NCBI GenBank assembly: GCA_910592005.1
Contig: CAJVPP010000020.1
Coordinates: 1 to 64,000, forward strand
Length of the DNA: 64,000 bases
From: Funneliformis mosseae
Taxonomy: Eukaryota; Glomeromycota; Glomeromycetes; Glomerales; Glomeraceae
Direction of reading: 5' to 3'
Positions within the stretch are counted from its first letter, which is position 1; the number at the start of each line of letters is the position of its first letter. The notes beneath the pieces were generated by a model. That model did no database searches and was not told the origin of the DNA. It saw only the letters and a program-made list of their open reading frames with translations. The position numbers were made by a program, and so were the translations under genes. This document shows, in pieces, positions 3,352 to 59,037 of the stretch.

Positions 3352-5061
3352 AAAATAAGCACTACCTATTTTACATAGAATCCGTAAATAAGCATCCTTT
3401 ACAATCAAAATTTTATAGCAATAAATTTTTATATAAATGAATTATAAAGTTCTTTATTATATATATAAATGAAAACTATAAAAAATTCACATAATATCTT
3501 CGCTAATTACTTTATTATTATCATTGATTTTATCATTATTATCAATATTATTATCATCAATATCATGAATATTAATATCATGATCAATATTATCATTAAT
3601 GCTGTAATCAAAAACCTTTGAATCTGAGCCCAAATCTTTGGAAATTTTACATTTTTTAAAGGACTCAATAATAACTTCTGTAATAATATTCTCTCAAGCT
3701 TCATTTAATCTATAAGCATACATTACTAAAGTTAGCGTAGCAAAGATTTCTAGTTGCAGTTTCTCCTGCTTTACCACTATTCATCCATTTATGCTATTTT
3801 TTATAGAGATTATCTTTGAATAGCTTATTTATTAAAATATCGAGTGGTTAATACATACTAGTCAATCTACCTAAAATTATTGCAAGATAAATACTACTTT
3901 TACAAAACTTTTCTTTAATTGATTTTTCTAAGTGTCCCCTAAAAGAATCATACACAAGCATTGACGAATTTCTCTGAATATTATTTTTAACTTGTAAATT
4001 ATTAAGATAATTAATATAACTTACCATCAGATTGCTATTCATTCAACCATTACTCTAAAACTAAATGATAACTTCATAAGAAATATTTTCTTTACATGAC
4101 ATTCATTTACTTTTAAAAATGCATATTAAAAGGAATTTGGACCTATTTATAGTAAAGTAATGAAATAAATCATCAGCTTATGAGAAATCATTAAATAAAG
4201 AATAGAATAAGATATGAATAAGATAAGAAAAGTAGTTAGAAAAATTGAAAAGAAAAGAAAAAGAAAAATAGAAAGAAAAAAATAGACAATATCTGTAACA
4301 ATCGTAAGAATAACGGTAAATTAATTTTTCTCATTTTCAGTTACTCAGACATGAATTATCCTCTCTCCTTTCAAGTTAACTGTATAAACACTGGCTATAT
4401 TGAACTACATAAGCGTCTCATTTATGTTAAAATATTTTTTGATTCTTAGGTTAGTAACGAAATTATAAAAACTTTCTAATAATTCTTGAGTTTTGTCAAG
4501 AAGATTTTAGAATATTTTAGTTCTTTTACATAGTGTAAACTTATACCTTTTCATAAAGCTACGAATCCATTTCTAAGACATTTTATATTCTTCCATTAAA
4601 TCACTATAAAGAACTAACAGCTCCAGTTCTTTTAAAATTTTAAATATTCTATTTTGTATAATTCTATAGGTAATTGCAAAACCTTGTTTTCTTTATTTTA
4701 TTATCCATATATACAGCTTTTCTTCTACTTCTAAAAAAAACTTTTCAACTGAAACTAACATGCTTACTTATTTCATTCACTTTATCTGTCTAACAAGTAC
4801 TAGCATTTACCCAATATCCTACTATAATTATATTAAGGTTAAAGTGTTTACCAGCTTCATTCTGACTATATTTCTTTATGTAATTGACTACTTCTTTTTT
4901 TTTGTTTAATAGAGTATGAGTTTCATATACATTTAAAAATTCGTGATATTATTTTTAAAAAGTAAAATTTGATCAATGTGAATTTCAGAAAATATTTCAG
5001 ACTTTTTATTTTAAACTACTTGAAAATAAGCATCCTTATAGTAAAAAGTGATGCTTATTTT
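3352..5061 (-). mobile_element. pogo/CENP-B-like DNA transposon, 1.7 kb, with TIRs
   Basis: Left end AAAATAAGC (3352-3360) and right end GCTTATTTT (5053-5061) are perfect inverted repeats, and similarity continues inwards imperfectly (CACTACCTATTTTAC against the complement of the right end). Each end is flanked by TA (3350-3351 and 5062-5063), the target duplication expected of the Tc1/mariner-pogo superfamily. A subterminal AATAAGCATCCTT motif occurs near both ends in direct orientation. The interior carries a decayed DDE transposase on the minus strand. The clean ends suggest a single undisturbed insertion, although the coding region is dead. Confidence 0.8.
3490..4975 (-). pseudogene. CENP-B/jerky-type DDE transposase, decayed
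   Basis: Read on the minus strand, the N-terminal part near 4,980-4,700 resembles an HTH of the psq/CENP-B kind, with residues such as KYSQNEAGKHFNL. The catalytic half near 4,030-3,850 has MLVYDSFRGHLEKSIKEKF, in which VYDSFRGH supplies the central Asp of a DDE_1 domain, followed by LTSMY-stop-PLDI where the family has CQPLD. Further on, a GKAGETA-like segment and an acidic Asp/Asn/Ile tail are visible (about 3,760-3,500). Several family Trp codons read TGA or TAG, one Gln reads TAA, and there are frameshifts. It cannot encode an active transposase. Confidence 0.75.
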
Positions 5062-7231: not shown

Positions 7232-8960
7232 TTACAATTTCTTTATTTTACTTCTTTCACATCTATTATTACCTCTTACATATCTATTATAATTTGGTGC
7301 TTTTTCTATATGATTAGTAAGCTTTTCTATTCTATTATTACTTATATATCTAACTTTAATACCATCGCATTTTTTATTTTTATACTTTTCAACTACCTGT
7401 ACTGCTCTTCTTCTTTTACTTAGATGTATTATTTTAATATGATTCTTTATAAAAACTTTTGTTGAAAAATATTTGTCACATTTTTGACATACAAATTCAT
7501 AGTACATCTTAGATAAAATACTTAGATAATGCCTATCATAACCTGAAAGCTTATTGCTAAAATATTTTAATGTGTGAAATATATTAAGAAAATATTTATC
7601 CTGCTTATATAATAGGGGAAATAAAACTATTATTTGTTAATAAAAATTCATAAATATGAGGAGCTCATAGAAGTTTACAATAATTTCTATCTTTATACTT
7701 ATGAAAATCAACAGAATGTTTATAAATTTGTGAATGATGATCAATCCAATTTCATATTTTCTTTTTAACATCTGAAAATACAGCTTGATTATATTCTTCA
7801 ATATAAGTAGTAATAACTGATTATCTATTAAAAAGATCACAATTTCAAAAGTCATATAAATGTTTACTAGTATGTTTAAAATTTTTACATTCAAGTTCTT
7901 CATTAATAACAGTAACCTGCCATTCATATTCTCCAGATGATTATTATAATTAAAAGTATTAAGCATGATGCTAGCTAGTTTATCAGAAAGTGATGCTATA
8001 CCCCATTCTACTGGATTATAAGCTGATTATTCAAGAGCATGCATTCAAATAGTAAGATAGTCTAAATCTAATTTTTTAAAAAGTAACAAATATTTTAAGA
8101 TATTAGATAAGAATTTAGGATTTTTGTCTAGACTACCATCTGTTAATAAGTATCAAAATAGTTTTACTATGCCTTCATGATGTTTATATTCATAAAAAGA
8201 CTTCTCTTTTGTAATTATAAGAAGATCTACCATATATATTTCACATGATATACCTAAAAAGAATTCAGGTCAAATAAAATTCTTAATTGACTGAAACATA
8301 GGGAATCATTTATATATTGAAATCAATTACTAAATAAATAAATGATATAAGCTTATATTTTACGTTTATTAGAAAATCATATTTAGAATAGATACTGTCT
8401 TATTTATTATTTGCATAGCCTTAAATGTTCTTCTAATAGCAACAATTCTAAGAGAAATCTAATAAAATTTTAAATTAAAATTAAAAACAAAAAAAAATAA
8501 ATAAATAAAAAATTAAATTACAATATCTTAGCTTTATTATCTTGTGAAATTAATACAACATTTTAAGAAAATATTGATGTAAATGATTTTGCACTCTTAA
8601 CTGATATTAGATAATAATGTTCATCATTATGATTATTTATTTTATTTCTTTTAACAACTGCTATATATATTTGTGCAGAATAGTGATGTCTTTTTGCTTC
8701 CTTTATTCCTAAATGCTAGGATTGCATATAATTTTGCAATGTGAATCTTGCCATATAAATATGATAATCCTCCTCCATTTTTTCATGAAAGTGTTGAATT
8801 ATATGTATTTTAATTACTTTTTTATGTCTTTTGTAATCAGCAGTTTTGAATTCAATGCTACTATGCATTTTTTTAAAAGGTCTGGATTATTATTAAATAT
8901 GATGACTGACTTGATGTATTATATATTTCTATCATGTTTTCCTTCTCTAGTATCTCTTTT
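7232..8960 (-). pseudogene. Transposase-like gene with C-terminal C2H2 finger, decayed
   Basis: On the minus strand a protein can be followed in pieces. Near 8,860-8,560 there is EDYHIYMARFTLQNYMQS and an AKRHHYSAQIYIAVV-like segment; near 8,150-7,975, TDGSLDKNPKFL and SAYNPVEWGIASLSDKLA; at 7507-7232, a C2H2 finger of pattern C-x2-C-x12-H-x4-H within YEFVCQKCDKYFS. The Asp of the DGSLDKNP segment and the Glu of NPVEW are placed like acidic residues of a DDE-type nuclease; that is inference. Stops (TGA at expected Trp, TAA at expected Gln) and frameshifts break it. I associate it with a repeated zinc-finger family of mycorrhizal fungi but cannot name the superfamily. Confidence 0.5.
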
Positions 8961-36587: not shown

Positions 36588-38245
36588 ATGGAAATTGATT
36601 CGTGTTCTTGGGAAATGAATCAAGACGATGAAAATAATAATTCTACACCAACAGATCCCGCTTCCAATATCACCACCACCACCACCACAACCATTACCAC
36701 TGTAAACAAATCAAAATCATCCACAACGGCAAAACCCAGTAAATCGGAAACAAAACAAAAGGTTCCTTTTACACTAAAATATCAGCTCAATATTCGTAAG
36801 ACCAACAACAACAACAACCACTTAATATCAAACGACACCCCTCCTCCAATCAATGTTCAGAATCGACTATTACAAGTCGATCAAGACAAAGGGCAAATTT
36901 CATGGGTTCCTGAAGGATATCACCAGGTGATTTTCATTATATTTTAAATAAAGAAAAAAAAAATTTTTTCAAACTCTTTTTATTTATAAATAATTTTTCT
37001 TTTATTTATTTTTGAAACAATTAGAAACGACGAATTACAAATTGCAATTCATCAAAACCTTATGACATAAAAGTACCAAGACCACCTAACGCGTTCATTA
37101 TATACCATAGGAATAAATCCAAGGAATTGGCGAAATTTAAATCCATTGGAAAAATTGAATCGAACGAGCGTCATCCATCAAAAACTGTGGCGGAGATGTG
37201 GAAGGAAGAACCCGAAGCGATCAAATTAAGATATCAAAGGGAGGCGGATTTGGCCCTTGTGGAACATAAAAAGAAATATCCCTTTTATAAATATAAACCA
37301 AAAAAAAAGGATAGTAAAAATAAAACGAGGTCACAAAGCAGTTCCAAAGAGATGATAAAGGATTTAAATAATCATAAGAATAATGAAAATGAGATAATGA
37401 ATGATGAAGTTCCTATGCAACATCGAAAACAAGCCGCAATGGAATCAGCTTTTACAGCGTTCGACATGCAAAGTTCTTCATCCTCTTCGCAGGAAGAAGA
37501 AAATTCCGCCGATAACATTTCTGTTAGTAATCACTCTCCACCGCACACTCCTCCACCGCACACCCCTACTTCGCCAAATGCTGTTGTTAACATGCCACGT
37601 TCACGAGCTCCGGCTTCACTTTGGATTGAACCCACCACAGACAAACCATTTTTTAATGAACATTTAAATTTCTCTCCTTCACAACAAAGATGTCAATGCA
37701 CGGCTCATTGTGTAAATAATAATAATAATAATAATAATCATGATGTTATGACATCTCTGGGAATATTATCTCCAGAGCAAGCAGCGTTTTCGATAATATT
37801 CAGCAACGTTTATAAACAGACCGTAGACCAACTTGTCAATTATGGGCTAATGCCAATTTCACCACATCCCATTACGGCAACGATCGCTGATGATCTTGTT
37901 ACGTCCCCCTACCCAACCACTTCTTCTTGCGCCCTGGACGAGAACACCTTCTTTCCGCCAAATTCTGCGCATGTGCCAGATTGGACATACGCGGCTGATT
38001 ACGTTGTACCTTCTCAATCTCCGACATCATCTTCATCATCACATGTTGTAACTTCACCAACTTCGACAGATTATATGCCTTGGATTACATATGATAATTC
38101 TCAATTTATTGATCCCATACAAAATATCACGAATATTCCAAATATTGTTCCAGATGAAACCAATTGTAATTTATTTACAGATACAAATAATGATGATTGT
38201 GCCTTATTTGATAATTTTGATACGAATCTTAATTTTTCACTATAA
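36588..38245 (+). CDS. MATA-HMG-box transcription factor
   Basis: Two exons, 36588-36926 and 37025-38245, encode 519 residues; the intron is GT-AG with phase 0. The first ATG of the open frame is used. The N-terminus has a Thr run and Asn runs, then ISWVPEGYHQ at the end of exon 1. The HMG box (about residues 131-205) begins VPRPPNAFIIYHRNKS, continues HPSKTVAEMWKEEPEAIKLR and ends KKYPFYKYKPKK, the MATA-HMG subclass that binds DNA in mating-type and related fungal regulators. The C-terminal 300 residues are Ser/Pro/Asn-rich, with PHTPPPHTP, an eight-Asn run (AAT repeat near 37,715-37,738) and a hydrophobic segment (EQAAFSIIFSNVYKQTVDQL). It acts in the nucleus. Glomeromycotina carry many such genes, so it need not be the mating-type determinant. 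Confidence 0.92.
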
Positions 38246-41836: not shown

Positions 41837-44736
41837 TCTTGCGTCGGAAAATCATCTTTGAATAAGCTATGTTGTCTTTCCCATTTACCACATGTAAATA
41901 AAGGTCGATCTCTATTAACTCGCTACTTTTGAAATTTTCGTCAATCAAATTAGTAATCTCTAGTTCCTTACATGGTAATGCGGACCGGAGCTATTTCAAC
42001 AGTTAATTTTCCATTTTGCATCTGCGTTACTATTGGATGTTGATCCACTAGGACAAAAAGTTCAAACTTGCATAGGTTGATTCCCCCCCGAATTTAATTT
42101 GTACGTCTTTTGGACTATTAAAAAAGTAATTTGAGACCTTTTACTTTTTTTTTTTTTACATTTTCAAACGTCGTTAAACATTGCGTATCACATTTTTCCC
42201 AGTTTACGTTTAAAAAAAAGAAAATATTTGTTATTATTATTATATATGCATCATCTGTCCAATGTATTCTTTCGTTTCACACCTTTTTTATTTTACTCAT
42301 ATCCCTGAACCTTCTTATTATCGAATTTATCAATTAAAATGACAGTTTTGAATGAACAAAGTTCCGTCAATTATACAAATGCTTCCTGATGGCTTCATTG
42401 TTTAGGAAAAAAAAAATTTTTTTGGCCCCGAAGAAAAAACGCGAGATATGATACACCTTATCCCTTATCTTATGTTTATTTCCACTTTTCAAAAAGGAAT
42501 CCTCTTATCGCTTATTTATTTGTGTATTTACCATTTAACAAATTTTTTTTTTTTTTTAAAAAAAAAGCCACACCTTCTTGATCAGTATCCTGTGCGCACA
42601 TTTTACCTATTATTATTTATTATTATTATTGTTGTTGTTGTTGTTATCAAATTTCTCATCAAATGGTATCATCCTGTTTCGTAAAAATAATAAGGGTTCA
42701 TGTGTCTGCTCATTGTTTATTGAACTCTTGAATTTTCCACCCTAACGCGATCCCCCTTTACGAATGAAATTTTTTAAGCAATTAACTCACGGCATGGCAA
42801 ATTGAATTTTTTTTTTTTGGCGGGAACATGATGGTTACAATGTTTTGCATGAAACATAATTTTTCTTGTGTGTTTGTTTTTTACTTTAAAAAAATAGTTT
42901 TTTTTTTTTTTTTTATCCAATCCAATAAAACCAATTAATTTTGTATATTCGGATGTGTATATATGTAGTAGATTGATTAATTAATTACCCTTGATATCAC
43001 ATTTCTTGATCATCGGATATTTTTTTGGCGATTGACCTTTTTTTTTTAGCATTTTTTTTTTTTGATCTTCGGGTAAATGAGGTAAATTCTTGAAATATGC
43101 TTGGTACCTTGGCGCGACAAAAACAATAATAATTACCCTGCATATTTATTACTACTAATAATACGCGAGAGTGAGATGTTATAGGGTCATATTTATCGAA
43201 TCTACCGTGTATCAAAAAAAAAAAAAAATTTGTAAAACTTGATCCCGAATTAAATAAGCAAATTAATCATTTCAACCTCCGTCGTTTAAAAAAGAAAAAA
43301 AAAATCAAAAGAAAGTATATACACACGCATACACACACCGGTTGTTATGTTATGATATGCGTCCGTATTTTTTTTAAAAAAATGATTCGCCTTTGGCGTG
43401 AGGCGGCGATTCGAACGAGAGAGCGGTGATAACGAGATTCGTCAACCCTTAAACGCACATCACGAACTTATGAGGTTTATCTATTTTTTTTTCCTATTAA
43501 GATGGTGCCTTTTGACAAGGGTGAGCCGACATCCAATATTTTTAGGGGTCAGGGAAATTCCATGTCTTACCTGGGGTGGTACCCTCGGAAAAGTATCCGG
43601 TGAAGGAAATTATTTTTTTTTTTTTTTAATGTTTCTCAGGATTTGTAATATAATTGACATGTTCATATAAATTAACATAATGATTTACATAATTTAAAAA
43701 AAAAATAAACCCTGAATTCCGAAGATTTAATCGTTATAGATTTTATTGTTGTGTGACGACAATTAGTTCAGTTTAGGTAAGAAAATAAATAACAATGATC
43801 GATTTTATTATACAATCAATATAAATTTTATTATAGCACAAAATCTGAAACCTATCTATATTCGTATGAATAAACATATATACATACGTAACGTTACAGG
43901 TTGTAAATAAAATTTATTAATTGACTGGGTACGTTTTACTATTTTTCCAAGGGTTGGTGCATATATTATTAACCTAGTACCCTAGTGAAGATTTACATAT
44001 AAAAAAAAGCCATGATTTCATTACCTTTTTTTGTTAAATCAAAATTATTATACCGCATCTTACAATTCCACTTTTTTTATATCGCTATTATTCAACTTAA
44101 GTACCGTGATATATATTTTCTTAGTCAAAGGGTTGAAATACAAGAATATGTTCATGATAATGATATTATTCTACTAAGAAGCTCCAGTGGTGTAGTGGTT
44201 ATCACGCGTGCTTCACACGCACGAGGCCCTCGGTTCGATCCCGAGCTGGAGCAACTTGTTATTTTAAAAAATCGACCATATGATATTTACGATCTTTTTC
44301 TAATTTTTTATTTTGCATGTGACTTTTCATAACATAAAAAAAAAAATAAAAATTGATTTAATTTTTTTATTTTAATCTTAATGGATTTATTTTATCTTAA
44401 AAAAAAAAAAATTTTACATTATCAATTCGCATAAAAAAAAAGAATACCCGATCACCTTTTTACCTTTTTTATTTAATCTAATTTTTTAAATTAATCGATA
44501 CGCATAAAAAAAATATATCATGAAATCCATCATTTGACAAGGAAAGAAAAAAGAATCGAGGTGATCGGGGAAAAAAACAAATTTACAATTGTTCATTTTG
44601 TTATAAATCCTCCGAAAAAAAAAAGGGGGAAGAAAAACGTATCAAAAAGGATGAAAAAAGAAAAAAAAAAGAAAGGATAAAAACCCCAATGTCCGTCTAA
44701 TTTTTGTGGTGTTATAAATTTACAAAGAGGAGAGTT

Positions 44737-44768
<32 letters not shown>

Positions 44769-44854
44769 TCGTGCGCCCTCAAAAGCAAAATAGTTACTAA
44801 CTAAGCAGGGAACACTATTGTCTAAGGAAGCTGGAGACTAGAAATTTAAAGATT

Positions 44855-44888
<34 letters not shown>

Positions 44889-46112
44889 GTTTCTATTTTG
44901 CAATCAATATATATATTTGTTGAAAGTAGGTACCATCATCTTTCGTTTGATGCTTTATATGTTTTGTCTATAAGGACGCTAATGTAATTTAGATAATCTT
45001 AGGTTTAATATCAAATGATATTATCTATATTAAAAATGATATTAGGTAATGTATGTCAGAGCCCTAAAATGTAGTAAGTAGTATGTATTGATACTGTATT
45101 TATTGTGAGTCTATGTCTGGTTCCTGACGCCATTCGATATATATCTCTTAACCAGGAATTCTAAAATCTTTTTATCAAGGTCTATGGCCACCTTCTCTAC
45201 TTCTCTGATTTGGTTCTCGTCCAAAAATATCAACGAATCCTTCACGACCACTGTGTCTCATCACATCAAATATGTCTCTCGCGTTAACAGGTGTACCGAG
45301 TGGATCAAAATCTTCATTCATATCATCACTGCTCCCAATTTCATGATGACGATTACTTCGAATGTCATCTTGAAGGAACATATGACGACGATGATTATGA
45401 AAGTGTGAATGATGATGATAATGTAGATGATGATGATGATGCCTGTCATCATTATCATCGATACTACTATCAAGAATTTCATAATCCTCATCGGGAGGAG
45501 TTGGCGTCGACGGAAACGGTGGAGGAAGAGCTATAAAACGTAAATGACCCCCATCATGAACGTTTAAGGGTGGACTTGGCTGTGGGAATACACGAGCGGG
45601 AATATTACCAAACTGAAAGTGATTATCTGTCATGGGGAAATGATGATTTAAAGGGTTGTCGGATAACCTGCATATCTGAACGGGTTGATTATTTTGATGT
45701 TGTATTTGAACCTGATAACGAGGTTGATTTGGTTGTCCGTCCTATTAACTCAAAGAAATTTGAGTCTGTAAATTCATTAAAGTACAAGAGAAAGAATTGA
45801 AAAACACAAGCTTAATTCGTAAAGAAAAAGTTTGAATAATAAATTTTACCTCAATGGGTTCAGGAATGTTTGGTGTCATCCCTGACACGGACTTTACGGC
45901 GATTAGGATACCACCCCGATATGAATTAAGGTTCTCGATTTCTGATTGATAAACGAACGCCAACCTATTAATGGTTAAAAAATGTACGCATTGAGTGGGT
46001 GGGTAAACGGGAGATTTGGATGAAATTTTTAAACACGACTGACCTTGAACTTTCTTCGGATTCATATATATTTTTAATACTGGTGTCAACCTCTTGTTCA
46101 GCCCTTTCTAAC
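41837..46112. repeat. Tandem duplication, unit 1 (4,276 bp)
   Basis: Every block compared with 46113-50388 is identical at an offset of 4,276, including a 13-T run, a 25-A run and a 29-T run. The unit contains an intergenic stretch, tRNA-Val(CAC) and the 3' exons of an E2F gene. The pentamer TCTTG lies at the left edge (41837-41841), at the unit junction (46113-46117) and at the right edge (50389-50393), which marks the breakpoint. The unit ends inside an E2F exon, so this copy of that gene lacks its 5' part. Confidence 0.95.
44181..44253 (+). tRNA. tRNA-Val (anticodon CAC), copy 1
   Basis: The acceptor arm GCTCCAG pairs with CTGGAGC, followed by discriminator A. The anticodon stem CGTGC/GCACG encloses the loop TTCACAC with anticodon CAC, which reads GUG (Val). 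The T arm contains GGTTCGATCC. The cloverleaf is complete in 73 nt with no intron, and CCA is not encoded, as usual in eukaryotes. A T-rich stretch follows within 60 bases and could end RNA polymerase III transcription. Confidence 0.95.
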
Positions 46113-46117
46113 TCTTG
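45175..46117 (-). pseudogene. E2F gene fragment lacking its 5' half (duplicate)
   Basis: This repeats the 3' part of the E2F gene at 49451-51144. Corresponding exons are 46044-46117 (only 74 of 168 bases of the coiled-coil exon), 45850-45964 and 45175-45741. The first exons and the whole DNA-binding domain are missing, because the upstream sequence is the start of unit 2 rather than the rest of the gene. It has no mutations relative to the intact copy. If transcribed, it could encode only the marked-box remainder and the His-rich C-terminus. Confidence 0.9.
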
Positions 46118-49012
46118 CGTCGGAAAATCATCTTTGAATAAGCTATGTTGTCTTTCCCATTTACCACATGTAAATAAAGGTCGATCTCTATTAACTCGCT
46201 ACTTTTGAAATTTTCGTCAATCAAATTAGTAATCTCTAGTTCCTTACATGGTAATGCGGACCGGAGCTATTTCAACAGTTAATTTTCCATTTTGCATCTG
46301 CGTTACTATTGGATGTTGATCCACTAGGACAAAAAGTTCAAACTTGCATAGGTTGATTCCCCCCCGAATTTAATTTGTACGTCTTTTGGACTATTAAAAA
46401 AGTAATTTGAGACCTTTTACTTTTTTTTTTTTTACATTTTCAAACGTCGTTAAACATTGCGTATCACATTTTTCCCAGTTTACGTTTAAAAAAAAGAAAA
46501 TATTTGTTATTATTATTATATATGCATCATCTGTCCAATGTATTCTTTCGTTTCACACCTTTTTTATTTTACTCATATCCCTGAACCTTCTTATTATCGA
46601 ATTTATCAATTAAAATGACAGTTTTGAATGAACAAAGTTCCGTCAATTATACAAATGCTTCCTGATGGCTTCATTGTTTAGGAAAAAAAAAATTTTTTTG
46701 GCCCCGAAGAAAAAACGCGAGATATGATACACCTTATCCCTTATCTTATGTTTATTTCCACTTTTCAAAAAGGAATCCTCTTATCGCTTATTTATTTGTG
46801 TATTTACCATTTAACAAATTTTTTTTTTTTTTTAAAAAAAAAGCCACACCTTCTTGATCAGTATCCTGTGCGCACATTTTACCTATTATTATTTATTATT
46901 ATTATTGTTGTTGTTGTTGTTATCAAATTTCTCATCAAATGGTATCATCCTGTTTCGTAAAAATAATAAGGGTTCATGTGTCTGCTCATTGTTTATTGAA
47001 CTCTTGAATTTTCCACCCTAACGCGATCCCCCTTTACGAATGAAATTTTTTAAGCAATTAACTCACGGCATGGCAAATTGAATTTTTTTTTTTTGGCGGG
47101 AACATGATGGTTACAATGTTTTGCATGAAACATAATTTTTCTTGTGTGTTTGTTTTTTACTTTAAAAAAATAGTTTTTTTTTTTTTTTTTATCCAATCCA
47201 ATAAAACCAATTAATTTTGTATATTCGGATGTGTATATATGTAGTAGATTGATTAATTAATTACCCTTGATATCACATTTCTTGATCATCGGATATTTTT
47301 TTGGCGATTGACCTTTTTTTTTTAGCATTTTTTTTTTTTGATCTTCGGGTAAATGAGGTAAATTCTTGAAATATGCTTGGTACCTTGGCGCGACAAAAAC
47401 AATAATAATTACCCTGCATATTTATTACTACTAATAATACGCGAGAGTGAGATGTTATAGGGTCATATTTATCGAATCTACCGTGTATCAAAAAAAAAAA
47501 AAAATTTGTAAAACTTGATCCCGAATTAAATAAGCAAATTAATCATTTCAACCTCCGTCGTTTAAAAAAGAAAAAAAAAATCAAAAGAAAGTATATACAC
47601 ACGCATACACACACCGGTTGTTATGTTATGATATGCGTCCGTATTTTTTTTAAAAAAATGATTCGCCTTTGGCGTGAGGCGGCGATTCGAACGAGAGAGC
47701 GGTGATAACGAGATTCGTCAACCCTTAAACGCACATCACGAACTTATGAGGTTTATCTATTTTTTTTTCCTATTAAGATGGTGCCTTTTGACAAGGGTGA
47801 GCCGACATCCAATATTTTTAGGGGTCAGGGAAATTCCATGTCTTACCTGGGGTGGTACCCTCGGAAAAGTATCCGGTGAAGGAAATTATTTTTTTTTTTT
47901 TTTAATGTTTCTCAGGATTTGTAATATAATTGACATGTTCATATAAATTAACATAATGATTTACATAATTTAAAAAAAAAATAAACCCTGAATTCCGAAG
48001 ATTTAATCGTTATAGATTTTATTGTTGTGTGACGACAATTAGTTCAGTTTAGGTAAGAAAATAAATAACAATGATCGATTTTATTATACAATCAATATAA
48101 ATTTTATTATAGCACAAAATCTGAAACCTATCTATATTCGTATGAATAAACATATATACATACGTAACGTTACAGGTTGTAAATAAAATTTATTAATTGA
48201 CTGGGTACGTTTTACTATTTTTCCAAGGGTTGGTGCATATATTATTAACCTAGTACCCTAGTGAAGATTTACATATAAAAAAAAGCCATGATTTCATTAC
48301 CTTTTTTTGTTAAATCAAAATTATTATACCGCATCTTACAATTCCACTTTTTTTATATCGCTATTATTCAACTTAAGTACCGTGATATATATTTTCTTAG
48401 TCAAAGGGTTGAAATACAAGAATATGTTCATGATAATGATATTATTCTACTAAGAAGCTCCAGTGGTGTAGTGGTTATCACGCGTGCTTCACACGCACGA
48501 GGCCCTCGGTTCGATCCCGAGCTGGAGCAACTTGTTATTTTAAAAAATCGACCATATGATATTTACGATCTTTTTCTAATTTTTTATTTTGCATGTGACT
48601 TTTCATAACATAAAAAAAAAAATAAAAATTGATTTAATTTTTTTATTTTAATCTTAATGGATTTATTTTATCTTAAAAAAAAAAAAATTTTACATTATCA
48701 ATTCGCATAAAAAAAAAGAATACCCGATCACCTTTTTACCTTTTTTATTTAATCTAATTTTTTAAATTAATCGATACGCATAAAAAAAATATATCATGAA
48801 ATCCATCATTTGACAAGGAAAGAAAAAAGAATCGAGGTGATCGGGGAAAAAAACAAATTTACAATTGTTCATTTTGTTATAAATCCTCCGAAAAAAAAAA
48901 GGGGGAAGAAAAACGTATCAAAAAGGATGAAAAAAGAAAAAAAAAAGAAAGGATAAAAACCCCAATGTCCGTCTAATTTTTGTGGTGTTATAAATTTACA
49001 AAGAGGAGAGTT

Positions 49013-49044
<32 letters not shown>

Positions 49045-49130
49045 TCGTGCGCCCTCAAAAGCAAAATAGTTACTAACTAAGCAGGGAACACTATTGTCTA
49101 AGGAAGCTGGAGACTAGAAATTTAAAGATT

Positions 49131-49164
<34 letters not shown>

Positions 49165-50388
49165 GTTTCTATTTTGCAATCAATATATATATTTGTTGAA
49201 AGTAGGTACCATCATCTTTCGTTTGATGCTTTATATGTTTTGTCTATAAGGACGCTAATGTAATTTAGATAATCTTAGGTTTAATATCAAATGATATTAT
49301 CTATATTAAAAATGATATTAGGTAATGTATGTCAGAGCCCTAAAATGTAGTAAGTAGTATGTATTGATACTGTATTTATTGTGAGTCTATGTCTGGTTCC
49401 TGACGCCATTCGATATATATCTCTTAACCAGGAATTCTAAAATCTTTTTATCAAGGTCTATGGCCACCTTCTCTACTTCTCTGATTTGGTTCTCGTCCAA
49501 AAATATCAACGAATCCTTCACGACCACTGTGTCTCATCACATCAAATATGTCTCTCGCGTTAACAGGTGTACCGAGTGGATCAAAATCTTCATTCATATC
49601 ATCACTGCTCCCAATTTCATGATGACGATTACTTCGAATGTCATCTTGAAGGAACATATGACGACGATGATTATGAAAGTGTGAATGATGATGATAATGT
49701 AGATGATGATGATGATGCCTGTCATCATTATCATCGATACTACTATCAAGAATTTCATAATCCTCATCGGGAGGAGTTGGCGTCGACGGAAACGGTGGAG
49801 GAAGAGCTATAAAACGTAAATGACCCCCATCATGAACGTTTAAGGGTGGACTTGGCTGTGGGAATACACGAGCGGGAATATTACCAAACTGAAAGTGATT
49901 ATCTGTCATGGGGAAATGATGATTTAAAGGGTTGTCGGATAACCTGCATATCTGAACGGGTTGATTATTTTGATGTTGTATTTGAACCTGATAACGAGGT
50001 TGATTTGGTTGTCCGTCCTATTAACTCAAAGAAATTTGAGTCTGTAAATTCATTAAAGTACAAGAGAAAGAATTGAAAAACACAAGCTTAATTCGTAAAG
50101 AAAAAGTTTGAATAATAAATTTTACCTCAATGGGTTCAGGAATGTTTGGTGTCATCCCTGACACGGACTTTACGGCGATTAGGATACCACCCCGATATGA
50201 ATTAAGGTTCTCGATTTCTGATTGATAAACGAACGCCAACCTATTAATGGTTAAAAAATGTACGCATTGAGTGGGTGGGTAAACGGGAGATTTGGATGAA
50301 ATTTTTAAACACGACTGACCTTGAACTTTCTTCGGATTCATATATATTTTTAATACTGGTGTCAACCTCTTGTTCAGCCCTTTCTAAC
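46113..50388. repeat. Tandem duplication, unit 2 (4,276 bp)
   Basis: This copy remains joined to the 5' exons of the E2F gene at 50389-51144, so it contains the functional 3' end of that gene. It has the same content as unit 1. The lack of differences even in long homopolymers means the event is very recent, is kept identical by conversion, or is an assembly duplication. Confidence 0.95.
48457..48529 (+). tRNA. tRNA-Val (anticodon CAC), copy 2
   Basis: Identical to the tRNA at 44181-44253, offset by exactly 4,276 bases, with the same flanks on both sides. The internal A and B box regions are carried within the duplicated gene, so both copies should be equally transcribable if the duplication is real. 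Confidence 0.95.
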
Positions 50389-51144
50389 TCTTGACGTTCG
50401 GATTCCAAATTTTCATTTGCAGCCCTGAGTTCTTCAATTCTCCGTTTATAGTCTTGGCGTATAGCTGGTTGTTGCTGTTGTGTACCCCTGTAAGAATTAT
50501 CATTGGTGATGATTGTGAAAATTATTTACGCGATTATATCACCAATGGGCAAGGAGAATGCGCATTTCTGTTGTACAAAGCAAAACCATAAAATTACAAG
50601 AGCTTTGCTCAACTAAAAAACAAATATAACACACACACTTACTTCCAACGAACATGATTCTTTGAATTTTTTTCAATTAAACCAATTCCTTCCAACACGT
50701 TTGTAATATCGTAAATTCTTCGCTTTTGAACTTCTAAGGCGGTTGCTGCTGTGTTTAGGTCCAAGTCACCATCCTTTGCTCCCATAAGTAGATTCACAAA
50801 CTTTTTGGTAAGTAGACCGAGAGAACTGTCATAACGACATGAGCCGGCGACGACAGCACCGGAGGTGTCTTTAACATACAAAAAAAAAAATATATATATA
50901 TATTTATAAAATACTTTAGAAGGTACAGTTCAGACATCATAGCTCATTTCAAGAGAAAGGCGGAAGAGTTGTTGTTACCGTTCGTCGGAGATTCCAACGG
51001 AGTTTGCTTTTTAGGTGTACTTTTCCTCCGAGCTTGTCGAGGTGGTTGTGTGAATGGATTTGACCTTGTTGAAGATGAGGGAGGATTGAGCCTTTGTGAA
51101 GCGGTACCTCGACGGGAGTTGGCGGAAGGAGAGTTCAATGACAT
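49451..51144 (-). CDS. E2F transcription factor
   Basis: Five exons on the minus strand: 50979-51144, 50643-50868, 50320-50487, 50126-50240 and 49451-50017. All introns are GT-AG and phases join without a break to give 413 residues. After a Ser/Pro/Arg-rich N-terminus, the winged-helix DNA-binding domain (about 66-131) has [14 protein letters not shown] and the signature [18 protein letters not shown] (105-122), which separates E2F from DP proteins. A coiled coil (about 135-185, [20 protein letters not shown]) and marked box (about 188-240, [12 protein letters not shown]...QPRYQVQI) serve dimerisation with DP. The C-terminus has a His-rich run (326-344) and acidic DFDPL...ARDIFDV (about 369-385), resembling a retinoblastoma-binding segment. 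It should control G1/S genes. The 3' exons lie inside duplication unit 2. Confidence 0.93.
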
Positions 51145-52624: not shown

Positions 52625-54118
52625 TGTAATTTCAAATCAAAAAGGATTAAAAAAAATTTTTTTTTTTATACAAACCACTTTGTAATATGTCTGGTCTTGA
52701 TATGGTCGTATTGGACACAATAACGCCATCCACGCCAATATTCAAAGCTGCATCTGCAATGTCTTCTAATTCTTCATCGGAAAGATCAGGTGCAATTTTA
52801 ACCAATATGGCCGGACGCGGTTCATGTAACGAATTACGTGCATCCGTGACCTAAAAAGAAATTGACGATAAAGAGAATCTTTGTTCAGTAAAGCAAAAAC
52901 AGAAATGACGAGTTCATGAGTTTTCTGCCGTACTTGCCTCTTTTAACAATTTCTCAAAGATCCCTTTCCTTTGTAATCCTCTTAATCCAGGGGTATTGGG
53001 ACTACTGACATTTATCACCAGTACATCGGCATAACTTCCAAGGGTCTTTACTCCTTTAACATAATCCTGAATATCTTCAGCGTCCTTCCATTTGTTTTTT
53101 CCTAAATTAATTCCCAGCAATTTTCCCTCTTTTAAACTTCTATTTGTTCCCAACGCATCAGACAATGACACACCATCTGGTGATGAGGCAAGCAGTGCCG
53201 CAGTCGTCCTAGGATGAAGTTTCGCTGAATGATAAAGGTAACGTCTTACGCGATCACGTAGTCTTAATTCCACCTGGTTGTGACCATCAGAATTGAAACC
53301 ATAACGATTTATCACGGCCTTGTCTTCGGGAAGACGGAAAATTCGTGGTTTTGGATTTCCAGGCTTTGAACATTATTGACAAGTTATCGGAGACAAATTA
53401 ATTTTTTTTTTTAGAAATAGATGAGAAATGATTTATGAAATGAATGATACCTGAGGTTCGGGAGTTACACTTCCTATTTCAACATATCCAAATCCAAGGT
53501 CAAACAAACCATCAATGGCTTCCCCATGTTTATCAAATCCTGCTGCTAAACATATCGGATTAGATATCTTTTTACCCCATACCTAATCAAAAAATTTAAT
53601 GAAATTTTCACAAATAAAGATTTTAAAATACTAACCAAAATAATTATCGAATTAAAAAAACTCGCGATTATGCTTTTACACAAATCATAAAGTTAATAAT
53701 GAAAAAACGGTATGAAATGTATAAAATTCTGGTTTACCTCAACAGAAAGCCTTTCATCGTCAGGTAATCTATCTTTAGCATTTAAGCCCCATTTGGAAAT
53801 CCATATGGCAAATTTATGACTTGATTCTGGAGTAGTTACATTTCTCAACAAGGGCGTAAAAAGATATCTGTGAATTGCTGCTCTAGAATCAAAATAATAT
53901 TCTATAAAGAAAATCGAGGCAAAGACACTAGTTGTTCCAATAAGGAAATTCTTTAATTTATAAGTAGGTGTCGGGGCTTTAATTGAAGTAGTTGTGAGAG
54001 TTCGCTGAAAAGTAGGTGGAATTTTATAAGCATTGCGTGAAGAGTAGATAATAGAGTAAGATACTCGCGATGATAATAGTTCCCTAGTTGTATAGGATAA
54101 AATCCGAGAGGAATTCAT
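52278..54118 (-). CDS. Dihydroorotate dehydrogenase, class 2, mitochondrial
   Basis: Five exons (53738-54118, 53451-53582, 52938-53363, 52676-52850, 52278-52570) encode 468 residues. The enzyme oxidises dihydroorotate to orotate in pyrimidine synthesis and passes electrons to ubiquinone at the inner mitochondrial membrane. The Ser/Arg/Tyr-rich N-terminus looks like a mitochondrial presequence, followed by one membrane segment (about 57-77). Family motifs are [52 protein letters not shown] (catalytic Ser near 292), [17 protein letters not shown] and [13 protein letters not shown]. The third intron begins GC rather than GT (GAG|GCAAGT), because a GT site two codons later leads to a stop. The fourth intron is largely a T/A tract. 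It belongs to the human-like class 2, unlike cytosolic Ura1 of baker's yeast. Confidence 0.95.
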
Positions 54119-54406: not shown

Positions 54407-54909
54407 ATGCCTATCATAGTCGACAGTCAAGAACAGTTCGATAAATTTATCAGTAATGGAAAATTAGTATGTTAAATGAATAAAATTTTTAAATTTAATT
54501 CATTCTATTACGATAACTTTAATAAATTGGTCTTTTTTAATGAAATGTACAAAGGTTATCGTTGATTTTTGGGCAGATTGGTGCGGTCCATGTAGAATGA
54601 TTACCCCCAAATTTGATGAACTCTCAAAGACTTACCCAGAAGTTATCTTTCTAAAAGTCAATACAGATGAACATGAAGTATACAAATCTCTTTTTTATTG
54701 GTTTTTGAAATTTTAATTTTTTAAAAAAATTTAAAAAATGTTTATTTATATTTCAATAATAATAGAAATTAATGCATGAACAAGAAATTAAATCGTTGCC
54801 AACTTTTCGCTTTTTCAAAGATGGCAAAACTATCAAAGATGCTGACGTTATTGGAGCCGATCCGAGAAAATTGGAAAAAATGATTAAGGATCAACTTGGT
54901 TTATCATAA
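54407..54909 (+). CDS. Thioredoxin
   Basis: Three exons (54407-54466, 54555-54677, 54766-54909) encode 108 residues, the usual length of a single-domain thioredoxin; both introns are GT-AG with phase 0. The redox site WCGPC lies at residues 29-33, after VIVDFWAD, and the cis-proline loop SLPTF is at about 71-75. There is no targeting sequence, so it is likely cytosolic or nuclear, reducing protein disulfides such as those of ribonucleotide reductase and peroxiredoxins with electrons from thioredoxin reductase. It is transcribed divergently from DHODH. The introns are 88 bases each. Confidence 0.95.
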
Positions 54910-55924: not shown

Positions 55925-56875
55925 ATGAGCGTTGTCAACATTATAAACATTAAAGTTATCAATAACCCTACTTTGTTCACAGCGGACTACCAGTTTGAAA
56001 TTACCTTTGAGTGTATTTCCGAACTTGTAGACGGTATGTGCTTTCATTTACATAAAGTTGTTTGATTTTAGTTAATTAAAAGTAATAGTGTAGAAATTCA
56101 GCAACGATCTCTTTTATAGTCTGATAAAACTTACATTTTTTTTTGTTTGAAGAGCATATTTAAGCTTTTGCTCACGAATTGACGTTAGGGAAGCGTAATT
56201 TATACGCGTTTCACACATATAAGAATATTATTGATAATTTTAAATACGTTAAATAGTTTGTATATTACTTTTAAAAAAAGTACTTGATATTAACTTGTTT
56301 TTTATTTTTTTCTTTTTTCTCCTATTAGATTTGGAATGGAAAATAATTTACGTAGGATCCTCGGAAAGTAAAGAATATGATCAGGTTCTTGACAGCATTA
56401 TGGTTGGACCTGTACCTCCTGGTGTGAATCAATTCATATTTCAGGTATTGAACACAATATATTTTACTTTAACAAAGGGTTTTAATTGTCAAGGAAACTT
56501 AATAATGAATTTACAGGCGCCGGCACCTAACCCTGATCGTATACCCCCTAGCGATCTCTTGGATGTCACTGTAATCATTATTACGTGTTCTTACAGAGAT
56601 CAAGAATTCGTTCGTGTAGGGTATTATGTTAATAATGAGTACATCGAAGAAGAATTGAGAGAGAATCCGCCGGATAAAGTTATATTCGATAAACTTTATC
56701 GAAACATTTTGGCGGATAAACCTAGGGTGACTCGGATGCCTATCAAATGGTTAGTTTGTTTATTATTTTTATTTTGTAAATTATGTATTTAATAAGAAGT
56801 GATATGAATACCAATTTGTTCAACTTAAGGGATGACTTAAGGGATAGTCAAGGCCTAATATGTAGTGATGTGTAG
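55925..56875 (+). CDS. Histone chaperone ASF1
   Basis: Four exons (55925-56033, 56329-56444, 56517-56749, 56830-56875) encode 167 residues; all introns are GT-AG and phases agree. ASF1 binds the histone H3-H4 dimer and hands it to CAF-1 and HIRA for nucleosome assembly during replication and transcription. Visible family segments are [75 protein letters not shown] (Val at 94, a known H3 contact in yeast Asf1) and [10 protein letters not shown], ending [11 protein letters not shown]. The last exon adds only 15 codons including the stop, giving a short tail in place of the long acidic tail of the budding yeast protein. The first intron (295 bp) is the longest in these genes. Confidence 0.95.
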
Positions 56876-58224: not shown

Positions 58225-59037
58225 AAAAAGGCGAGGCTCAAAACTGGAAAGTTGGAACAACTAAAGTCTGCCAATATTCGATATGACGATAATATTTTAT
58301 TTCCCACCATAAATATGGATATAACGATATTTTCTTATAAATCCAGCAACATCATTATATCGAGTGATGCCTAAGGCTTACTCTTAAATAATTTGTCAAT
58401 CGACATAGATGGCAAGTTATTATTTGATGCACAGTTTTTGACTGCTATCGTGAAGAATGAAAGCATAATTCCACCTGGGCAAAAATCATGAAGACATCAT
58501 TATATCAAGTAACGCCCAAGGCTTGCTCTTAAATAATTTGTCAATCGAAACAGATGGAAAATAGTTATGTCGTATAAATATATAAAAATATGTAAACGTC
58601 GTGTCTTTTTTTCACACTTTCAAAAACAACTCTTTAAAGTCATCTTTTACATTATTATTTGATGCATAGGCTTTGACTAAGTAATCCTGAAGAATGAAAA
58701 CATAATCTCACCCTGGGAATAAATTTATGAAGACATCATTATTTCGAGTAGCGCCAAAGGTTCGCTGTTGAATAATGTGTCAGTCGACATGGATAGCAAA
58801 ATAATATTTGGTGCACGAGTTTTGACTGTTATCTTGAAAAAGTTGAGGCTCAAACTGGACAACTGGAGTGATTTAATTGCTTATAGGGATTTATTTAATC
58901 TTTTAGTGGCAATAGAGCTATTGACATCTTCTTACAGAAAGTTGATTTCACGTCAAAGCGGAAATGCTGATCGAGCCGATGGAATTGCATACACCACAAA
59001 TTCAAATTCTGATATACAAACTAAAAAATATATATAA
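58225..59037 (+). pseudogene. Decayed gene made of repeated protein units, unknown family
   Basis: Three tandem DNA units start with ACATCATTAT-like sequence at 58349, 58494 and 58733. In one frame each reads a common protein unit: SSDA-stop-GLLLNNLSIDIDGK, SSNAQGLLLNNLSIETDGK and SSSAKGSLLNNVSVDMDSK, followed in units 1 and 3 by LLFDAQFLTAIV or IIFGARVLTVIL. Unit 2 carries an extra 85-base insertion. A KKGEAQNWK-like stretch at about 58,225 recurs as KKLRLKLDNW after unit 3. The last unit stays open to 59037 (DNWSDLIAYRDLFNLLVAIE and beyond). Conservation at the protein level with stops in early units suggests a once-coding repeat now decaying. I do not recognise the family. Confidence 0.5.

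Follow-up and report, generated by a model that had tools for sequence, protein, structure and literature searches.

Does the perfect 4,276-bp head-to-tail repeat in a contig of Funneliformis mosseae record a recent event in this fungus, or the way in which its sequence was made? The window, that is the whole stretch of DNA analysed, covers the first 64,000 bases of a contig of 64,137 bp; it has 27% G+C and contains no N. When it was compared with itself, positions 41,837-46,117 proved identical to 46,113-50,393 over 4,281 bp, with 0 mismatches at an offset of 4,276; at this offset 4,276 of 4,276 positions agreed, and at the remaining offsets from 4,270 to 4,282 between 1,331 and 1,542 did so. 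In short form the window reads L + U + U + R (L, 41,836 bases; U, 4,276; R, 13,612), and the assembly holds two copies of segment U, head to tail: a left unit at 41,837-46,112, whose exact match extends to 46,117, and a right unit, identical to it, at 46,113-50,388, whose match extends to 50,393. The pentamer TCTTG (5 bp, plus strand) is common to both outer edges and the junction, at 41,837-41,841, 46,113-46,117 and 50,389-50,393. Each unit also carries two long homopolymers (plus strand), A25 at 44,744-44,768 and T29 at 44,857-44,885 in the left copy, and A25 at 49,020-49,044 and T29 at 49,133-49,161 in the right. The preliminary description had given coordinates, unit length, junction and homopolymers correctly, and the duplicated stretch itself is far beyond chance.

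Genome-wide comparisons covered 4,154 contigs (81.97 Mb), of which this contig is number 20 and the smallest measures 10,003 bp, the search for alleles extending to contigs of at least that size. Over the 81.97 Mb, with simple repeats and very common words skipped, the whole unit occurred nowhere but in this pair; of 30 matches, the remaining 28 were short and partial. That the unit has no dispersed copies among the compared contigs argues against transposition and against recombination between repeats; as the edges, moreover, share only 5 bp, an origin through a transposon or other repeat was rejected. A haplotig laid down in tandem was likewise rejected, given no second allele in contigs of at least 10,003 bp and no divergence. 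Among words with all four letters (k = 40), the window held no further exact direct repeats of at least 40 bp. Contamination is unlikely in view of the fungal genes and the protein matches to F. mosseae; an HMG-box open reading frame at 37,025-38,245, for instance, matches F. mosseae protein 7495_t.

Some features of the rest of the window may be recorded here. Both contig ends (1-12,500 and 59,500-64,000) are poorer in G+C than the middle (about 15-24% versus about 25-35%, in 2-kb steps), with shifts near 12.5 and 59.5 kb, and are perhaps AT-rich blocks where assembly stops. The AT-rich left end contains a dispersed repeat at 7,235-8,026 with at least 30 non-self matches in the genome (66-85% identical), the longest of which covers nearly the whole query at 77% identity; one of its open reading frames gave a weak C2H2 zinc-finger match, below the cut-off. 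At 58,349-58,807, a 75-nt unit is present three times; its second copy has 85% and its third 77% identity with the first, and the spacings are 145 and 239.

On its right side the duplication ends inside a gene for E2F, a transcription factor that regulates the cell cycle. According to our gene model, this gene lies on the minus strand from 51,144 to 49,451 and encodes 413 aa in five exons, with a winged-helix domain (PF02319) and a CC-MB domain (PF16421), each above its cut-off. Exon 1 (50,979-51,144, in agreement with F. caledonium protein P0025) and exon 2 (50,643-50,868, the winged-helix DNA-binding domain PF02319) stand outside the unit; exon 3 (50,320-50,487) is interrupted at 50,393, where the duplication ends; exon 4 (50,126-50,240) lies within the PF16421 match; and exon 5 with the stop occupies 49,451-50,017, a stretch containing a His-rich piece that is missing from the deposited proteins and is presumably spliced out. 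Since the edge is within exon 3, the right copy keeps E2F whole, and the left retains just the last part of exon 3 (46,044-46,117) with exons 4 (45,850-45,964) and 5 (45,175-45,741), a headless gene on the minus strand at 45,175-46,117 whose cut exon 3 joins the opposite end of the unit at the junction. The E2F neighbours are exons for a dihydroorotate dehydrogenase (52,914-53,372), a thioredoxin (54,480-54,713) and an ASF1 histone chaperone (56,253-56,789).

The headless E2F has been deposited as a protein of its own, F. mosseae 7496_t (P0026; 276 aa; window 45,175-46,877), and its presence in the public database is due only to the joint. Its 57 N-terminal residues derive from unit sequence downstream of E2F, after which the reading crosses the joint into the remainder of E2F; PF16421 is present in it and the DNA-binding domain absent. 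A profile search of the genome contigs with PF02319 returned the exon described here and one partial match on contig C530, and nothing in the left copy. Residues 1-62 of 7496_t matched only 7496_t itself (three candidates, all proteins of comparable length), and on these comparable-length candidates the idea that a genuine gene lies at the unit's left edge was rejected. The headless protein forms a cluster with one member. From F. caledonium a full-length E2F has been deposited, which departs from 7496_t at 1 of the 219 residues that the two have in common; no headless form from that species appeared among the best 120 of 5,359 matches (candidates of at least 0.55 of the query length), which speaks against a real duplication, though weakly, since annotation and assembly differ between the two. 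The gene calls were made with GeneMark-ES guided by aligned Swiss-Prot proteins, according to the available text of the source project (PMC10512289), and since the genes were predicted in this way, 7496_t is no evidence of expression. Most likely, the headless fragment is untranscribed or a spurious gene call. In addition, the unit carries a tRNA-Val(CAC) gene on the plus strand, at 44,181-44,253 and 48,457-48,529, with no other close copy in the compared contigs (the third match, 80% identical, is a tRNA-Val(TAC) according to ARAGORN); the longest other open reading frame of the unit, 109 aa, overlaps this tRNA.

How the sequence was made bears directly on the question. From the protein naming style and the species we infer that the contig stems from the single-nucleus project of Montoliu-Nerin et al. 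2021 (PMC10512289), whose main text, as available to us, names F. mosseae only twice, in a passage on strain identity. In that text, phi29 MDA started from individual nuclei or from small pools of them, with 7-24 nuclei per isolate; the products were sequenced on HiSeq-X and pooled, the reads were brought to a mean depth of 100x by normalisation, SPAdes 3.12.0 served for assembly, and no long reads are described there for these assemblies (PMC10512289). The raw reads are deposited under ENA project PRJEB45340, and the F. caledonium isolate UK204 clusters with F. mosseae (PMC10512289). Depth after MDA is uneven, and the reads were normalised before assembly. Contig merging by Lingon was rejected as a cause: workflows 1 and 2 of the group used it, and the 2021 paper, by its available text, used workflow 3, without Lingon (PMC10512289).

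Illumina reads are unable to span a 4.3-kb unit, and a short-read graph cannot separate two exact copies. We compared k-mer sets at k = 21, 33, 55, 77, 99 and 127. At all six k, a single locus plus a circle of U, and likewise three units in a row, gave the same k-mer set as the doubled locus, which adds to the single locus only the k-6 k-mers across the joint. Small differences between true copies are expected to be smoothed away by such assemblers. The two copies thus most likely stem from one path through the graph that was written out two times, in which case they agree by construction and the agreement of A25 and T29 is no evidence of youth. The identity, homopolymers included, and the copy number of two are probably properties of the assembly, not measurements. 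Consequently, the proposal in the preliminary description that the perfect identity marks an extremely young event lacks support, a short-read de Bruijn assembly most likely spelling one path twice.

The joint is a separate matter, and it may well be real. Among 200,000 random pairs of breakpoints placed 1.0-5.5 kb apart in the window, microhomology of at least 5 bp arose by chance at a rate of 0.0145. Comparison by BLAST of 3-kb stretches around both breakpoints revealed no longer stretch common to the two edges; there were 8 short matches (16-27 bp, best E 1.8e-4), none linking the edges. The breakpoints therefore show short microhomology, the 5 bp of TCTTG, without longer homology. Joins at a few bp of microhomology are typical of microhomology-mediated end joining and of replication template switching. 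The best reading, which we favour with moderate confidence, is a real tandem duplication mediated by microhomology: a 4,276-bp chromosomal segment, running from the region downstream of the E2F gene into its exon 3, would have been joined head to tail at TCTTG by one of these two routes. The joint would then exist in the organism and occur among its reads, and the short-read assembler would have spelled a single collapsed unit twice. Such a duplication should be near neutral, with E2F whole in the right copy and tRNA-Val(CAC) doubled. In its head-to-tail copies, few shared bases at the joint, lack of longer homology and edge inside a gene, the locus resembles known microhomology-mediated tandem duplications; it differs from them in that the exact identity here is likely imposed by assembly. 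The mechanism put forward in the preliminary description is partly supported, by TCTTG at three edges and the absence of longer homology, and loses force in that MDA makes like junctions: it joins segments less than 10 kb apart at short complementarity, so that microhomology does not separate a genomic event from an amplification event.

Such an amplification event would be a phi29 chimera, in which a displaced 3' end primed anew at TCTTG, 4.3 kb upstream and in direct orientation, and the loop so closed was walked once by the assembler. The source project did amplify by MDA, from single nuclei or small pools (PMC10512289, available text). The joint resembles the direct-orientation chimeras described in E. 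coli by Lasken and Stockwell 2007 (PMC1855051) in the distance between its segments, below 10 kb, in its short complementarity and in being a possible phi29 product; of the 475 chimeras in the part of that paper available to us, 11 were in direct orientation with less than 10 kb between the segments; 90.9% of this class showed complementarity, and about half had the segments in reversed order. By our arithmetic, the 495 chimeras per 10.88 Mb reported there (PMC1855051) correspond to about 0.5 back-jump junctions per Mb, and these, at 100x over 82 Mb, to about 4,300 junction reads. Within a molecule, however, inverted chimeras outweigh direct ones by a factor of about 26, again by the accessible part of that work (PMC1855051), and neither the window nor a small outside sample, 50 kb of contig C1, yielded any exact inverted repeat of at least 40 bp (k = 40, words with all four letters). 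A poorly supported loop beside a true exit should go unwalked by an assembler, which counts against a chimera. Junction reads would mostly occur singly and be drowned out by the 7-24 separately amplified nuclei that the project text describes, and a chimera would need to hold out against the pooled nuclei in order to be walked at all. We consider this origin rather unlikely.

It is also unlikely, in our judgement, that the joint occurs in no read and that graph or scaffold joining simply laid the unit down twice, an assembly duplication of the kind that the preliminary description named as its alternative. This would fit a unit of 4.3 kb, beyond short-read resolution, with a k-mer content that leaves the number of units unfixed, and the authors did report duplicated genes for their workflow 2; yet the workflow used here is a different one, which by the same available text gave few duplicated core genes in their first species. 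Against it stand, furthermore, the 5-bp coincidence at the joint (0.0145), the absence of N in the window and the survey of protein domains, in which, by eye and with the best candidates scored, 0 equal-score pairs on one contig were seen among the 418 matches listed (150 matches with 145 of 1,118 candidates scored, 150 with 150 of 379, and 118 with 150 of 154). Near-equal pairs do occur, e.g., on contig C1061 with 40.3 versus 40.0 bits, 4,027 bp apart. The corresponding tRNA survey, also by eye, showed 2 equal-score same-contig pairs among the 51 matches listed (63 of 4,777 candidates scored), namely that of this unit and a tRNA-Gly pair on contig C3107 with an exact run of only 71 bp. The latter consists of two tRNA-Gly(GCC) genes (L030 692-934) that lie 172 bp apart with different flanks around the 71-bp run. 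The rarity of identical-score pairs on the same contig gives no sign of a systematic doubling fault, as a weak bound. Finally, there may have been one chromosomal copy together with a 4,276-bp extrachromosomal circle closed at TCTTG and enriched by the rolling-circle copying of phi29. Extrachromosomal circles often close at microhomology. Locus plus circle gives the k-mers of the doubled locus at the six k from 21 to 127, and the amplification was indeed by phi29 (PMC10512289, available text); in likeness to extrachromosomal circular DNA, such k-mers are indistinguishable, and the difference is that the assembled sequence alone offers no evidence of a circle here, nothing positive going beyond this equivalence. 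Titles and the beginnings of abstracts brought up no literature on extrachromosomal circular DNA in arbuscular mycorrhizal fungi, and we regard the circle as very improbable.

If the microhomology-mediated tandem duplication is real, the event is biologically ordinary, and its interest is low unless the joint differs between nuclei. The preliminary description had also raised segregation between nuclei or strains; that the joint is carried by only some nuclei of one fungus, whether as a tandem duplication or in the form of a 4,276-bp circle with tRNA-Val(CAC), seems to us quite improbable. Judged by titles and the beginnings of abstracts, the literature on a long-read F. mosseae genome or on tandem duplication in Rhizophagus held nothing on point. 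SNPs among nuclei and MDA errors are treated in PMC11152072, where 'chimer', 'copy number' and 'structural' are absent from the main text as available. The locus nevertheless carries a caution for short-read single-nucleus assemblies: the perfect identity of long tandem copies is no clock, and such copies can place doubtful proteins in public databases, as here the headless E2F. Separately amplified nuclei, moreover, are replicates, and variants between the nuclei of one fungus can be separated from amplification chimeras by counting the nuclei that carry the joint; were it present in only some of them, it would be a structural difference between coexisting nuclei.
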